From a virus: 23,997 bases of DNA. A program made the translations under genes and the position numbers. Below, piece after piece: positions 1 through 6,790 of this stretch. The notes beneath the pieces are model-generated. The model was given only the letters and a program-made list of their open reading frames with translations, was not told where the DNA came from and ran no database searches. The stretch spans positions 1 to 23,997 of IMG/VR virus record IMGVR_UViG_3300050002_000039. The stretch is one strand, 5' to 3'. Within the stretch, counting starts at the first letter, position 1. Each line of letters opens with the position of its first letter.

Positions 1-49
1 GGTGCGGAACGCCGCGAAAAATAGCTAGGTAATAACGCTGGTTTACCCT

Positions 50-586
50 GTGTCGACTGTGCCCAAACGCGCCGCACCCGCCCCTATGACGATCGCCGAC
101 TACGCCCGGCGACGCGGGTGCGCACGCAACAGCGTCCTTCGAGCGATCGATCAGGGTCGGTTGCGCGAGTCGGTCGGCGTCAACGGGCGCGGTCACCGGC
201 TGATCCTGGATCCGGATCTCGCCGACGAAGAGTGGTCGCGGTCGGCGCAGTACCGTCGGCCGAACGACAACCCGGCGACGCCGATCAAGGCGGCAAACAA
301 GCTAGTCGACTTGCGCGAAGCGCGCGAAGCCGAAGCGCTGCGCCGTGATCGGATCAAGACCGCTCAGGCGGAACTCGATCTCGCGCAACAGCGCGGCGAA
401 CTCGTGCGCGTTGCCGACGTGCGCGCCGAAGTGACCGACGCCTTCGCGACCGTGCGAACGCGATTGCTTGCCGTACCGTCGCGATGCGCGCAACAGATCC
501 CGCACTTGACCGCGCGCGACGTGGCCATGCTCGACGACTTGATCCGCGAAGCGCTTGAAGCGTTGGCTGACGGCGACGACCGCTGA
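50..586 (+). CDS. terS: Phage terminase small subunit (Nu1-like)
   Basis: A 178-aa protein that probably recognises viral DNA and recruits the large terminase to start packaging. Residues 13-39 (from MTIADYARRRG to AIDQGRL) look like a MerR/Nu1-type helix-turn-helix. Residues 80-120 form a charged helix (KAANKLVDLREAREAEALR...), probably a coiled coil for oligomerisation. The stretch TVRTRLLAVPSRCAQQIP is a pattern I associate with the Nu1 family. The call uses the GTG at 50; an in-frame ATG at 86 begins exactly at the helix-turn-helix and is a realistic alternative. No clear Shine-Dalgarno sequence precedes 50; instead GGTTTACCCT sits directly before the GTG. Unusually, the large subunit lies about 2.5 kb downstream, beyond a block of minus-strand genes. 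Family assignment is by motif and context only. Confidence 0.8.
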   Translation: MSTVPKRAAPAPMTIADYARRRGCARNSVLRAIDQGRLRESVGVNGRGHRLILDPDLADEEWSRSAQYRRPNDNPATPIKAANKLVDLREAREAEALRRDRIKTAQAELDLAQQRGELVRVADVRAEVTDAFATVRTRLLAVPSRCAQQIPHLTARDVAMLDDLIREALEALADGDDR

Positions 587-616
587 TACGGTCGCCGCGT
601 CGATTCGTCGAAAAAG

Positions 617-658
617 AAAACGCCCGCCCCCCATGCTTTCCCAGGGGGCGGGCGTTTT
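617..658. terminator. Bidirectional rho-independent terminator
   Basis: A perfect 15-bp stem (AAAACGCCCGCCCCC at 617-631 paired with GGGGGCGGGCGTTTT at 644-658) encloses a 12-base loop. The A run on one side becomes a U run when read from the other strand, so the hairpin can end transcription both ways. It lies between the convergent small terminase gene (ends 586) and the minus-strand cassette (ends 691), where such a terminator is expected. Confidence 0.93.
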
Positions 659-690
659 CGCTTGAGCGCGTCGCTACTCGATGCGCGCGC

Positions 691-1044
691 TCACGACTCG
701 CCCCCAATTCCGAACTCGATCCAGTCGATCTCGCGGTGCCCGCACAGGTCGCACTCGCTGTCGCCCTCAACGCTCGCGCGGAATCGCCGCGCCGGGTCGG
801 CTTGCTCGCTCGTGCCGAGCCAACGGATGCTGCCCATCTCGTCGACGAGCGGGTTGTGCGCGCCGTGCGGCAACCGCACCACGACGGCTTCGGTGTCGTG
901 GCTACTCGTCAAAGTGTCGAGCGCGTGCAACGCGCTAAACCCGAGCGCCCAATAACCGTTGTCGGCGACCGCGACGAAAATGCGTTGCTCGGGCCAACCC
1001 GGAGGGAGCGTGACGGCGACGGGCTTGCGTGCTTTGGCGCCCAT
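691..1044 (-). CDS. Hypothetical protein, 117 aa, with CxxCGH motif
   Basis: Last gene of the minus-strand cassette. Not recognised. The ATG at 1044 is preceded by GGGGGGCGAGTAACC, a good ribosome binding site, and lies two bases past the stop of the upstream ribbon-helix-helix gene, so the two are likely co-transcribed. The sequence is soluble and mixed alpha/beta in appearance, with no signal peptide or membrane segment. Near the C-terminus is ECDLCGH, a CxxC-H group that could be half of a zinc site, and mid-protein is PHGAHNP. Codon use and composition match the other phage genes, and the gene ends about 30 bases before the shared terminator. A coding gene is well supported; its function is unknown. 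Confidence 0.7.
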   Translation of the reverse strand: MGAKARKPVAVTLPPGWPEQRIFVAVADNGYWALGFSALHALDTLTSSHDTEAVVVRLPHGAHNPLVDEMGSIRWLGTSEQADPARRFRASVEGDSECDLCGHREIDWIEFGIGGES

Positions 1045-1046
1045 GG

Positions 1047-1262
1047 TTACTCGCCCCCCATCGCGGCGAAGACGGCGGCGGCGGCGGCTTTGGCGGCGGC
1101 GGCGGCGATTGCCGTGCGCTCATGCGTTGCGTATTCGCCGTCGAGCCAACCGCCGAGTACGTCGGCGATTAGGACGTTGCGCGACACGCCGTTGCGGTCG
1201 GCCGCTTCGGTCAAGCGCTCGGCGACGTCGGCGGGCACTCGGAGAAGGATTTGCTTGGTCAT
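1047..1262 (-). CDS. Ribbon-helix-helix (CopG/Arc-type) DNA-binding protein
   Basis: A 71-aa protein. Residues 3-8 (KQILLRVP) fit the DNA-contacting beta strand, and ADVAERLTEAADRNG then VSRNVLIADVLGGWL fit the two helices of a ribbon-helix-helix dimer, which usually acts as a repressor or as the antitoxin of a toxin pair. Residues 52-68 are almost all alanine, encoded by GCC/GCG repeats, a low-complexity tail of unknown use. The ATG at 1262 overlaps the upstream stop in ATGA, suggesting translational coupling, and GGGAG lies six bases before it. No toxin was recognised next to it, so a regulator of this cassette or of phage genes is the more likely role. The fold is fairly sure; the target is unknown. 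Confidence 0.78.
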   Translation of the reverse strand: MTKQILLRVPADVAERLTEAADRNGVSRNVLIADVLGGWLDGEYATHERTAIAAAAAKAAAAAVFAAMGGE

Positions 1263-1729
1263 TGGTTACTCCCATCGGCGTGCGGGCAAGCGGGCGCGTG
1301 CCCGTCGTGCTCGGGGTAATCGCGCACCGCGCCTTGCCAGCAAAAGCACCCGTCGCGGTCGGCGAATCCGTGATCCCACGCGTTCGCGGTCGCGACCAGT
1401 GCGGAACCGTCGGCGAATACCCATCGCTCGCGGTCGGCGTCGCGCTCGCACGACGCGCCGAAGCGCTTGCAAAGCTCGTCGAAGTCGACGCCGTCGCGCG
1501 ACTCCCACCGAGCGCCGTCGTCGTCGAGCAGCGCCGTCACGAGTTGCGAGTGCTCGACGAGATCGATCGACTCGTCGAGCACGACGTCTTCCATTGTCAC
1601 GCGGGCGGGATCGTAGAAGGCGGGCATCGCCACGGCGAACGTGCCGCTCGCGTACCACGAGCCCGCGACGCGCTCGCCGTTGAGAGTGAGCAACTCGACG
1701 CGTCGGTTCGGTTCGGTTGTGACTGTCAT
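1259..1729 (-). CDS. Hypothetical protein, 156 aa, Cys/His-containing C-terminus
   Basis: Not recognised. The ATG at 1729 is chosen because AGGAAGG lies just upstream on the minus strand; the longer open frame further upstream is arginine-rich and looks like a shadow. The N-terminus (VELLTLNGERVAGSWYASG) looks like beta strands. The middle is acidic (MEDVVLDESIDLVEHSQ, then TALLDDDGARW). The C-terminal part holds CKRFGASC and GCFCWQG followed by HDGHAPACPHADG, a cluster of cysteine and histidine that could bind zinc. It overlaps the ribbon-helix-helix gene start by four bases. No signal peptide or membrane segment is visible. A real gene is likely; no function is proposed. Confidence 0.68.
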   Translation of the reverse strand: MTVTTEPNRRVELLTLNGERVAGSWYASGTFAVAMPAFYDPARVTMEDVVLDESIDLVEHSQLVTALLDDDGARWESRDGVDFDELCKRFGASCERDADRERWVFADGSALVATANAWDHGFADRDGCFCWQGAVRDYPEHDGHAPACPHADGSNQ

Positions 1730-1881: not shown

Positions 1882-2916
<1,035 letters not shown>

Positions 2917-2973
2917 GGCGGTTTCCTGGGTTCGGGTGGCGGGCTTTGCGGCCCTCAAAAACTCAACTCAACT

Positions 2974-3026
2974 GGTATCAGAATACCCGACGGGTGATAT
3001 CACGCAACCCCTTTTGATATCACCCG
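2974..3026. promoter_or_regulatory. Candidate operator: paired palindromes between divergent genes
   Basis: CGGGTGATATCA (2991-3002) and TGATATCACCCG (3015-3026) form a perfect 12-bp inverted repeat around a 12-base spacer. Each arm contains the palindrome TGATATCA, and the two copies are offset by 20 bases, about two helical turns, which suits two regulator dimers on one face of the DNA. Next to them, GGTAT-CAGA-ATACC (2974-2987) is a third dyad. The site sits between the start of the minus-strand winged-helix-like gene and the plus-strand large terminase. No promoter close to consensus is clear; on the minus strand TTGCGT and TATTCT, 16 bases apart, are a weak candidate overlapping the palindromes. 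Confidence 0.6.
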
Positions 3027-3057
3027 GTGTAAGCCCCCGAGACGGCGTCGCTTTTCC

Positions 3058-4959
3058 TTGACTTTTTTTCGCCAGTCGGTACGCGTTGACGGCGTGACGA
3101 CGCCCGCCGCCGCCGTGCTCGCGCCAACCTGGGAAACGCTGCGACCGCCCGCGCGGTTGGCGTTGAGCGATTGGGCGGAACGGTATTTCTATCTCTCGGC
3201 CGAGTCAGCCGCCGAACCCGGTCGTTGGCGATCGTTGCCGTACCAAGTCGGGATCATGAACGCGATCACGGATCCCGACGTCGAGCGCGTTTCGTTCATG
3301 AAATCGGCGAGAGTCGGCGCTACGAAGATCATGAACGCGGTCTGCGGCTACTACGCCCATCAAGATCCTTGCCCGATCATGATCGTTCAACCGACGGTCG
3401 AAGATGCGCAAGGCTACTCCAAAGAAGAGATCGCGCCCATGCTTCGCGATTGTCCCGAGGTCGGCGCGCTCTTCGCGTCGAAGTCGCGCACAAGCGAGTC
3501 GACGATCCTGGCGAAGTCGTTTCCGGGCGGCTCTCTTACGATGGTTGGCGCCAATTCGGCGCGCGGCTTTCGTCGCGTCTCGCGTCGCGTTGTGATGTTC
3601 GACGAAGTCGACGGGTATCCGCCCAGCGCTGGCAACGAAGGCGACCAAATCAAGCTAGGGATCATGCGAACTCAGTTCTACTGGAACCGCAAGATCATCG
3701 CGGCGAGCACGCCAACCATCGCCGGTCACTCGCGGATCGAACGCTTGTACGCCGAAGGCGATCAACGGCGGTACTTCGTACCGTGCCCGCACTGCGATCA
3801 CTCCGACGTGCTCACGTTCCGCGAAGACGCCGACCGCGGGCACTTTATGAAGTGGCCCGACGGCAAGCCCGAAGCCGCGCACTTCGTTTGTCGCGGGTGC
3901 GGTCAAGCGATCGACGAGCGGCACAAGCTCGCCATGCTCGACGCGGGCGAGTGGCGCGCCGCGAGTGAGTTTCACGGTCACGCGTCGTTCCATATTTGGG
4001 CGGCGTATAGCGTTTCGCCCAACTCGCGGTGGGGGCAACTCGCGACCGAATTCGTTGACGCGGCGAAACAAGGCGTTGAGCAACTCAAGACGGTCGTTAA
4101 CACGGTACTTGGCGAGACGTGGCAAGACCGCGGCGATGCGCCCGATTGGGCACGACTCTTCGAACGTCGCGAGCGCTACCCGATCGGAACGGTACCCGAC
4201 AAGCGCGCCGCGTTTTTGACCGCTGGCGTCGACGTGCAACGCGATCGCTTTGTGTTCGAGGTCGTCGCGTGGGCGCCGAACAAAGAATCTTGGAGCGTCG
4301 ACGCGGGAATACTCTTCGGGGATACCGCCGCCGACGCGACGTGGTCGCAACTCGACGAGTTGATCGCGAATCAGTACCAAACCGACGGCGAGCCAATGCC
4401 GATCTCGCTTATGGCGATCGATTCCGGCTACAACACGCAACGCGTGTACAACTTCGCGCGTCGCTACCCGATGAACCGGGTGATTGCCTGCAAGGGCGTC
4501 GCGACCGCGCGGGTACTCGTCGGTACGCCGTCGCCCGTTGACGTCGCGATCGGCGGTCGTGCGCGTCGTCGCGCGTACAAGGTTTGGCCCGTTGGCGTCG
4601 ATATCGCCAAAGCAGAGCTATACGGGTTGCTTCGCCTTCCGGTTGCCGCCGACGGCGAAGAAGCCGCGCCCGGGTTTGCGCACTTCCCGGAGTACGATCA
4701 AGAGTTTTTCCGCCAATTGACCGCCGAGCACTTGGTTACAACCAAGACGAAGAGCGGCTTCGCGCGCCATGAATGGCAAGTGATACCCGGGCGCGAAAAC
4801 CATTGGCTCGACGCCCGCGTGTACGCCCGCGTAGCGGCTTCCGTGCTCGGTCTCGACCGCGTGATCACCCGCCGACCGGCGGCGCGCACGGGGGAAACGA
4901 GCACGCCCAAGAAGAAGCGCAAGGCGTCGGGCGGTTGGCTCTCAAAGCGCCGACGTTGA
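3058..4959 (+). CDS. terL: Phage terminase large subunit (GpA family)
   Basis: The 633-aa ATP-driven packaging motor and nuclease. The N-terminal ATPase has LSDWAERYFYLSAESAAEPG (37-56), Walker A KSARVGATK (82-90, almost as in lambda gpA) and Walker B VVMFDEVDGYP (178-188), followed by STPTIAGHSRIERLY. CPHC (243-246) and CRGC (278-281) are probable zinc ligands. The C-terminal RNase H-like nuclease has AGVDVQRD (Asp392), MAIDSGYN (Asp455) and NHWLDARVYA (Asp585). FHIWAAYS and VNTVLGETW are also GpA hallmarks. The TTG at 3058 is the first start codon in frame after an upstream stop and lacks a clear ribosome binding site; GTG at 3094 is an alternative. The lysine/arginine-rich tail (from about 617) may contact DNA or the portal. 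GpA-type enzymes usually make cohesive ends; no cos site was identified here. Confidence 0.97.
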   Translation: MTFFRQSVRVDGVTTPAAAVLAPTWETLRPPARLALSDWAERYFYLSAESAAEPGRWRSLPYQVGIMNAITDPDVERVSFMKSARVGATKIMNAVCGYYAHQDPCPIMIVQPTVEDAQGYSKEEIAPMLRDCPEVGALFASKSRTSESTILAKSFPGGSLTMVGANSARGFRRVSRRVVMFDEVDGYPPSAGNEGDQIKLGIMRTQFYWNRKIIAASTPTIAGHSRIERLYAEGDQRRYFVPCPHCDHSDVLTFREDADRGHFMKWPDGKPEAAHFVCRGCGQAIDERHKLAMLDAGEWRAASEFHGHASFHIWAAYSVSPNSRWGQLATEFVDAAKQGVEQLKTVVNTVLGETWQDRGDAPDWARLFERRERYPIGTVPDKRAAFLTAGVDVQRDRFVFEVVAWAPNKESWSVDAGILFGDTAADATWSQLDELIANQYQTDGEPMPISLMAIDSGYNTQRVYNFARRYPMNRVIACKGVATARVLVGTPSPVDVAIGGRARRRAYKVWPVGVDIAKAELYGLLRLPVAADGEEAAPGFAHFPEYDQEFFRQLTAEHLVTTKTKSGFARHEWQVIPGRENHWLDARVYARVAASVLGLDRVITRRPAARTGETSTPKKKRKASGGWLSKRRR

Positions 4960-4992: not shown

Positions 4993-5232
4993 ATGGCGTT
5001 TTGGACACAAGCCGACGTCGACGCGCTCAAGGCGGCGATCGCGAGCGGCGCGCTCGAAGTCGAGTACCACGGGCCACCACGTCGGCGCGTCGTGTACCAG
5101 TCGTTCGCCGCAATGCGATCGCTCTTGGCTGAAATGCGGCGCGAAGTCGAAGGATCCGTGACGCATCGCAAAGCAATTCACCGGAAGGGCTTTCGCGGCC
5201 CGGGCTCTTCGAGGTTTCGCAGCAATGACTAG
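4993..5232 (+). CDS. Head-tail joining protein (gpW-like)
   Basis: A 79-aa protein beginning MAFWTQADVDALKAAIASG, the usual opening of gpW-type joiners found between GpA terminase and lambda-family portal genes. These small proteins bind under the portal and complete the head for tail attachment. After the first helix come a short beta hairpin (LEVEYHGPPRRRVVYQS) and a second helix (FAAMRSLLAEMRREVEG), as in gpW, then a basic tail. The ATG at 4993 is preferred to the in-frame GTG at 4975 because it gives the family's normal N-terminus. There is no strong Shine-Dalgarno sequence. The stop overlaps the portal start by eight bases, suggesting coupled translation. Confidence 0.88.
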   Translation: MAFWTQADVDALKAAIASGALEVEYHGPPRRRVVYQSFAAMRSLLAEMRREVEGSVTHRKAIHRKGFRGPGSSRFRSND

Positions 5233-6790
5233 CTTGGTTGACGTCTCGTGGTTCGATCGGCTCGTGCTCGCGGTCGCGCCGTCGTACGGAGTCAAGCGGC
5301 TTCGCGCGCGCGCAACGACGCGCTTGCTCACGTCGGGCAATGGGATCGCTCGTCGGCACTTCGACGCCGCCGCGGGCGGTCGCCGGGCGCACGGTTGGCA
5401 CCGGCGATCCAGCGACGCCAACGCCGCGAACTCGGCGTCACTGGTAGCGCTTCGCGAACTGTCGCGCGACTTGCGCCGCAACAACGGATGGGCGCGCCGC
5501 GCGATCCAAGCGATCGGAAACAACGTCGTTGGTTGGGGCATCGAAGCGAAGCCGATCGGCGTTCCCGACGCGCTCGCCGCGACGGTGGGCGACGTGTGGC
5601 GCGAATGGTCTGCTACGCCCGCGTGCGACTTCGACGGTCGTCTCAACTTCGCCGGGCTTCAGCGACTCGTGCTCGATACGGTGGTCGAGTCGGGCGAAGC
5701 GTTGATCTTGCGCGAGACCGGCGACAGTACAACCGACGGGTTGCGCGTTCCGTTGCGCGTGCGCGTGCTCGAACCCGACTATCTCGATAGTACGCGCGAC
5801 GTCCTACAAGGCGACGCGGGCCCGATTCGGCAAGGGATCGAATTCGACGACAACGGGCGCCGCGTCGCGTACCACCTATTCGACAGGCACCCGGGCGCAA
5901 CCGACGGCGCGCTCGGCGCGGTCACGTCGCGGCGCATTCCCGCGGCCGAAGTGATTCACGTGTACACGGTCGAGCGGCCCGAGCAAGTGCGGGGCGTACC
6001 ATGGCTCGCCGCCGCGATCGCGAAGTTGAACGACTTCGACGATTACGACGACGCCGTCCTGATGCAACAAAAAATCGCGAGTTGCTTCGCCGCGTTCGTT
6101 CAAGATTTCGACGGCACGGCGTCGCCGATTGGCGAACTCGTCGAAGATACCGAGACCGGCGACGACCTCGAAGAGTTGCAGCCCGGGCACATTGCGCACT
6201 TGCCGCCGGGCAAGTCGATCGCGTTCGCGTCGCCGCCCGCGGTAAGCGACCACGGCACGTTCACGAGCACGAATCTTCGGCGCATCGCAGCAACGCTCGG
6301 CGTCACGTACGAAGATCTCACCGGCGATTACTCGCAAGTGAACTTTTCCAGCGCGCGCCTTGCCCGCTTGGCTCATTGGCAAAACGTCGAATCCTGGCGT
6401 TGGCAAATGCTGATTCCGCAATTCTGCGACGGCGTGTTCGGCTGGTTCGCCGAGCGCGCTCAAGCGAGTGAGGGATGGCCCGAACAACCGCGCGCCGAAT
6501 GGTCGCCGCCGCCGATGCAGATGATCGAACCCGACAAAGAAGGTCTCGCGTACACGCGCCTGATCCGCTCGGGCGTCATGACGTTGTCGCAAGCGATCCG
6601 CGAGCGCGGCGAAGATCCAACGGCGCACTTTGCCGCCATTGCCGCCGACAACGCCGAACTCGACCGACTCGGAATCGTGCTCGACTCGGACGCGCGCAAG
6701 ACGACCGGCGCGGGAATGATCCAGCAAGACGACGAAGGCGACGACGCCAGCGCGGCCGAAGGCGACGACGCCAGCGCGGCCGCGGCTTGA
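5225..6790 (+). CDS. Phage portal protein, lambda family
   Basis: The 521-aa portal subunit; twelve copies typically form the ring through which DNA enters the head and to which the tail joins. Residues 76-110 contain RELSRDLRRNNGWARRAI and IGNNVVGWGIEAKP, the characteristic opening of this family. Later hallmarks are RVRVLEPDYLDS, GIEFDDNGRRVAYHLF, AAEVIHVYTVERPEQVRGVPW and GVTYEDLTGDYSQVNFSSAR. The C-terminus ends in an acidic, alanine-rich tail built from a 24-bp DNA repeat. The ATG at 5225 overlaps the gpW-like gene; GAGG about ten bases upstream may serve as ribosome binding site. Length fits the family, and position between joiner and protease is standard. Confidence 0.96.
   Translation: MTSLVDVSWFDRLVLAVAPSYGVKRLRARATTRLLTSGNGIARRHFDAAAGGRRAHGWHRRSSDANAANSASLVALRELSRDLRRNNGWARRAIQAIGNNVVGWGIEAKPIGVPDALAATVGDVWREWSATPACDFDGRLNFAGLQRLVLDTVVESGEALILRETGDSTTDGLRVPLRVRVLEPDYLDSTRDVLQGDAGPIRQGIEFDDNGRRVAYHLFDRHPGATDGALGAVTSRRIPAAEVIHVYTVERPEQVRGVPWLAAAIAKLNDFDDYDDAVLMQQKIASCFAAFVQDFDGTASPIGELVEDTETGDDLEELQPGHIAHLPPGKSIAFASPPAVSDHGTFTSTNLRRIAATLGVTYEDLTGDYSQVNFSSARLARLAHWQNVESWRWQMLIPQFCDGVFGWFAERAQASEGWPEQPRAEWSPPPMQMIEPDKEGLAYTRLIRSGVMTLSQAIRERGEDPTAHFAAIAADNAELDRLGIVLDSDARKTTGAGMIQQDDEGDDASAAEGDDASAAAA
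6734..6781. repeat. Two tandem 24-bp units in portal 3' end
   Basis: Two identical, adjacent 24-base units (6734-6757 and 6758-6781) each encode EGDDASAA. They form the acidic tail of the portal protein just before its stop codon, and look like a recent in-frame duplication. Confidence 0.95.

Follow-up and report, generated by a model that had tools for sequence, protein, structure and literature searches.

A predicted two-box operator for a ribbon-helix-helix protein cassette between the terminase genes of a phage

Results

Layout of the locus

The small and large terminase genes of the phage described here are separated by a four-gene cassette on the opposite strand, and the gap between this cassette and the large terminase gene carries a perfect inverted repeat with an identical palindrome in each arm. 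The question raised by this locus is which protein reads the repeat and which genes it serves. The window (the whole stretch of DNA analysed) is a virus record of 23,997 bases, a genome fragment whose plus strand encodes phage head and tail genes, namely the terminases, a head-tail joining protein, the portal, the capsid, and tail genes. The cassette occupies 691-2916 on the minus strand, and the features around it are as follows:

50..586, plus strand, small terminase subunit (phrog_57, E 2.4e-26)
616..659, no strand assigned, strong hairpin flanked on either side by T runs, a terminator where the cassette and the small terminase gene converge
691..1044, minus strand, cassette gene 4, 117 aa, orphan, starting directly after the stop codon of gene 3
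1047..1262, minus strand, cassette gene 3, 71-aa ribbon-helix-helix (RHH) protein of the CopG family (Pfam RHH_1) with beta-strand KQILLRVP, the proposed binder
1259..1729, minus strand, cassette gene 2, 156 aa, orphan
1882..2916, minus strand, cassette gene 1, 344 aa with an (EP)n low-complexity stretch
3094..4959, plus strand, large terminase subunit gpA, start inferred at GTG 3094, with TTG 3058 also possible

The divergent gap between the cassette and the large terminase gene spans 2917-3093 (177 bp) and contains the box pair. The contig starts 49 bp before the small terminase gene (window 1-49), possibly at or near a packaging end.

The inverted repeat and its boxes

The elements of the site are the following:

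2973..2980, no strand, degenerate box 3, TGGTATCA, centre 22 bp from box 1
2991..3026, no strand, perfect inverted repeat of 36 bp with 12-bp arms and a 12-bp spacer, the predicted two-box operator
2995..3002, no strand, box 1, TGATATCA
3015..3022, no strand, box 2, TGATATCA, centre 20 bp from box 1

The first-pass annotation had described twin palindromes within a 12-bp inverted repeat, set two helical turns apart, and the sequence agrees with this precisely: the arms are CGGGTGATATCA (2991-3002) and its exact reverse complement TGATATCACCCG (3015-3026), each arm contains the 8-bp palindrome TGATATCA, and the box centres lie 20 bp apart. It had also placed a third dyad next to the repeat. The dyad GGTAT-N4-ATACC is indeed present at 2974-2987, but a degenerate third box is the better interpretation, since TGGTATCA, which forms part of it, differs from TGATATCA by one mismatch. 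The three boxes are thus separated by intervals of 12-14 bp, with centre spacings of 22 and 20 bp.

A search of the rest of the window for the box, as proposed in the first-pass annotation, returned only the two copies in the gap, compared with 0.04 expected, and two or more copies were obtained in 0/100 shuffles. When up to one mismatch was allowed, there were four sites in the 24 kb, three of them in the gap. Exact 12-bp inverted repeats do arise by chance over a length of 24 kb (mean 0.63, nested ones included), and the window has another one at 1550, in coding DNA, which leaves room for the site being a product of chance or a recombination scar from insertion of the cassette. We regard this as very unlikely, however, because the box is AT-rich and rare in DNA of 64% GC, three boxes stand within 50 bp, and the same box recurs upstream of RHH genes, as described below. 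In simulations, an exact 12-bp inverted repeat fell within the 177-bp gap in only 6 of 20,000 cases, and 0.6% of simulated windows contained two identical AT-rich 8-bp palindromes close together. The exact long pattern, CGGGTGATATCA-N11..13-TGATATCACCCG, was found in no second viral contig.

The boxes belong to the cassette

The terminase comparison covered about 50 loci that have related terminase genes and in which a small subunit can be recognised. Most of these relatives have overlapping terminase genes or no more than some 60 bp between them, and a minority have small genes inserted at the junction, on the plus strand in those read. The cassette was present at the junction in none of the approximately 50 loci, and the single TGATATCA among them lies inside the small-subunit region and outside the junction, so that boxes in this position are limited to the cassette-bearing phage. 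The first-pass annotation had counted absence of the arms from relatives with conserved flanking genes against its reading. For the terminase genes this is nominally what is seen, the relatives keeping the genes without the arms. The cassette, however, is missing from the same relatives, and the result therefore ties the site to the cassette and does not mark it as meaningless. The boxes would then have arrived with the cassette, or evolved with it.

These loci also bear upon the idea of a packaging site, in which the small terminase subunit would bind the boxes. The boxes do adjoin the large terminase gene and the N-terminus of the small subunit is helix-turn-helix-like. However, packaging sites are usually located ahead of the small subunit gene, and only one of the related terminase loci has a box, which is inside its small-subunit region. 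We consider such a function extremely improbable.

In this phage group, the junction between the small and large terminase genes is a recurrent insertion place for small genes (L002, L058, L060, L062, L067, L068, L071, and L077). The window is the only one of the loci read in which an antisense cassette occupies this junction.

The box recurs upstream of RHH genes

Paired-box scans of sequence collections returned a mix of coding repeats, terminators, and likely regulatory regions. Because the first pattern matches were often coding repeats or terminators, paired-box counts alone were not taken as evidence, and the genes standing beside the box were considered. In several high-GC phage contigs (L016/L019, L167/L174, L168/L172/L177, and L171), arrays of 3-5 boxes adjoin an RHH gene, and the encoded proteins have Q-x-x-x-R-x-P in the DNA-reading strand in common with the RHH protein of the window, to which the L016 protein is 39% identical over 36 aa. 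In a betaproteobacterial genome (L125), GGTGATATCA-N12-TGATATCACC, with spacing identical to that of the window, lies directly upstream of a VapB-like RHH gene that is followed by a PIN toxin gene (PIN E 3e-11). Elsewhere, the box stands upstream of RHH genes singly and at other spacings, which is difficult to reconcile with an RNA element, in which the 12-bp inverted repeat would form a leader hairpin in the transcript of the terminase or of the cassette. The repeat does fold on both strands, at -22 kcal/mol (z -3.6 and -2.3), yet a hairpin has no need of arms that are themselves palindromic, no T run follows the repeat, and no Rfam match was found, all of which renders an RNA element highly improbable.

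A protein-first test was made with a five-sequence RHH profile, which was searched in about 700 genomes from Actinomycetota and Pseudomonadota samples. The 3-kb stretches around the profile matches were read, yielding 69 full-length loci, nearly all from the Actinomycetota sample. TGATATCA occurred as 9 copies in 7 of these loci, all of them at most 350 bp upstream of the RHH match (p 3e-9), a value to be read in light of the mild circularity of a profile built partly from loci found by the box, although the genomic loci themselves were chosen regardless of the box, and of the kinship of some loci in the set (L205 and L243). No copy lay elsewhere in the 69 loci, and among all 256 8-bp palindromes, TGATATCA ranks first for enrichment upstream of RHH genes. 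With one mismatch allowed, 25 boxes were found within 150 bp upstream in 18 of the 69 loci (p 2e-15), which is far above the other palindromes tried.

Three of these loci are particularly close to the window. L211 and L248 carry TGCTATCA-N11/12-TGATAGCA at the RHH gene and L247 has a close variant; in each, the RHH gene is followed by a PIN-like protein and the strand reads KQLLLRVP, compared with KQILLRVP in the window. The L248 protein is 50% identical to that of the window over 34 aa. VapB/FitA-like antitoxins with a KQ(I/L)LLRVP strand thus have two near-identical boxes 19-20 bp apart, the spacing being 19-20 bp in L125, L211, and L248 and 20 bp in the window. The first-pass annotation had proposed an operator-like site suited to pairs of dimers two turns apart, with the neighboring RHH protein as one candidate binder, and both suggestions gain from this comparison: the two-box spacing recurs at RHH operators, the box is enriched upstream of RHH genes, and the strand is common to the RHH proteins found at such operators.

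The association has its limits. Among 30 RHH loci sampled from Myxococcota, most of them from one other subfamily, TGATATCA was not found anywhere, and no boxes accompanied the six distant plasmid RHH genes that were read (36-52% identity). Therefore, the box is limited to some RHH subfamilies.

Candidate readers encoded within and outside the cassette

The 71-aa protein scores 21.6 bits against Pfam RHH_1 (cut-off 20.5), which places an RHH domain in it. A single-sequence structure model has helices at 11-24 and 28-41 with no strand resolved (pLDDT 61), and the C-terminal tail appears by eye to be Ala-rich, unlike those of L211 and L248. No relative of this protein was found in phage records and viral contigs, nor were relatives of the 344-aa, 156-aa, and 117-aa proteins found where searched. 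No cassette protein, the 117-aa protein included, matched a PIN or other toxin family, and none of those scanned matched ParA. A winged-helix-like neighbor, which the first-pass annotation had offered as the other candidate binder, is not supported: family searches with the 344-aa protein gave low-complexity hits and nothing informative, and a structure model of it (mean pLDDT 36) has no confident fold and is too poor for a structure search. In the gene for this protein, GGGCTC repeats at window 2317-2350 encode the (EP)n stretch in frame.

The boxes could also be read by a protein other than the RHH protein, such as an AlpA/Cox-like helix-turn-helix protein of the phage or its host, or a phage repressor encoded outside the fragment. 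P4-like satellites offer a parallel, with a pair of GTGATATCAC boxes spaced 21 bp apart preceding their AlpA genes. The N-terminus of the small terminase subunit shows a weak Cox-like match, and further regulators would be out of sight in a genome fragment. On the other hand, none of the window genes scanned was recognised as AlpA, and the RHH protein encoded by the cassette itself has the strand found at TGATATCA/TGCTATCA operators. We consider a different reader rather unlikely.

Discussion

Proposed mechanism and promoter

Taken from the sequence comparisons, the box pair is probably the operator of the accessory cassette, bound by the 71-aa RHH protein that the cassette encodes and serving to repress the cassette. 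RHH proteins bind as dimers, with a two-stranded sheet placed in the major groove (PMC3325190). Each 8-bp TGATATCA box would take one dimer of the 71-aa protein, the paired beta-strands (KQILLRVP) of which would recognise it from the major groove. Cooperative binding would be expected of two dimers situated on the same helix face, two turns apart, and a third dimer may occupy the degenerate third box. The bound protein would cover the cassette promoter and lower transcription, leaving the cassette autoregulated. Consensus promoter scans passed no promoter near the site in either direction, and repression is therefore a step that we infer. A weak candidate for the cassette promoter, missed by the scans, was read directly from the sequence:

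2980..3007, minus strand, TTGCGT-16-TATTCT, weak candidate cassette promoter

Box 1 lies between the hexamers of this candidate and touches the -35, while box 3 touches the -10. A further point against the operator reading is that the RHH gene is third in the cassette and does not adjoin the site. An additional effect of the operator on the terminase gene across the gap, or on late transcription as the first-pass annotation had suggested, is conjecture. If the operator reading is true, the phage itself carries an ordinary autoregulated accessory cassette.

Comparison with known systems

FitA-FitB is an RHH-PIN toxin-antitoxin pair, four heterodimers of which occupy an operator of 36 bp and contact 6/8 positions in each 8-nt half (PMC3920265, PMC6118392). 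The site described here is similar to that of FitAB from Neisseria gonorrhoeae in the length of its repeat (36 bp), its two 8-bp half-sites, and its predicted RHH reader, just as it resembles the FitA-like antitoxin loci L211 and L248 in its two-box operator and in its strand (KQILLRVP versus KQLLLRVP). Unlike FitAB and VapBC, the cassette has no recognised PIN toxin beside the RHH gene, the RHH protein has an Ala-rich tail in place of a FitA-like one, and the whole unit resides in a phage late region. With no recognised toxin and a different RHH tail, the cassette is therefore not classed as VapBC, despite its VapBC-like operator. A stand-alone phage switch, in which a VapB/FitA-like antitoxin has lost its PIN toxin and controls both the cassette and the start of the packaging genes across the gap, is conceivable, though we consider it unlikely.

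Other RHH systems differ further. Omega (ParB) of pSM19035 binds as RHH dimers to 5'-WATCACW-3' heptads in arrays (PMC9499535); it is similar in placing RHH dimers on a short arrayed box containing ATCAC, whereas its 7-bp repeats are contiguous and non-palindromic and those of the window are separated 8-bp palindromes, with no ParA match among the cassette proteins scanned. The cassette also resembles moron cassettes, as an extra opposite-strand unit among late genes that has its own terminator and is absent from relatives, except that its promoter is a weak candidate only. Arc/Mnt-type repressors are small phage RHH proteins that act upon palindromic boxes, but the RHH gene here belongs to a cassette wedged between terminase genes, rather than to an immunity region.

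The box in other genomes

The comparisons link TGATATCA and TGCTATCA/TGATAGCA to an RHH class that includes VapB/FitA-like antitoxins and phage regulators. Among the open-library papers searched, none was found that names this box alongside RHH or VapB. The enrichment approach could be applied again to predict operators in uncultured phages, along with the proteins that read them.

Further occurrences of such boxes were encountered in other settings. In P4-like satellites (L011, L014, L022, L161, L170, L175, and L176), the AlpA gene is preceded by two boxes of the GTGATATCAC type, whose centres are separated by 21 bp. A 67% GC phage, G001 (the 58,004-base virus record of L023; L152-L154), has 28 TGATATCA sites, several of them paired at distances of 27-35 bp; the sites of one pair lie on either side of TTGACA-18-TATAAG (L023 6669-6707) and others overlap possible start codons. 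The record has no match to RHH_1, and its sites look like a phage-wide regulon. In a Myxococcales contig (L128), eight TGATATCA boxes at 4003-4262 precede a ParA-like gene, and the next gene (5145-5672) encodes a protein with an RHH-looking C-terminus and no Pfam match; this array is possibly a partition centromere.
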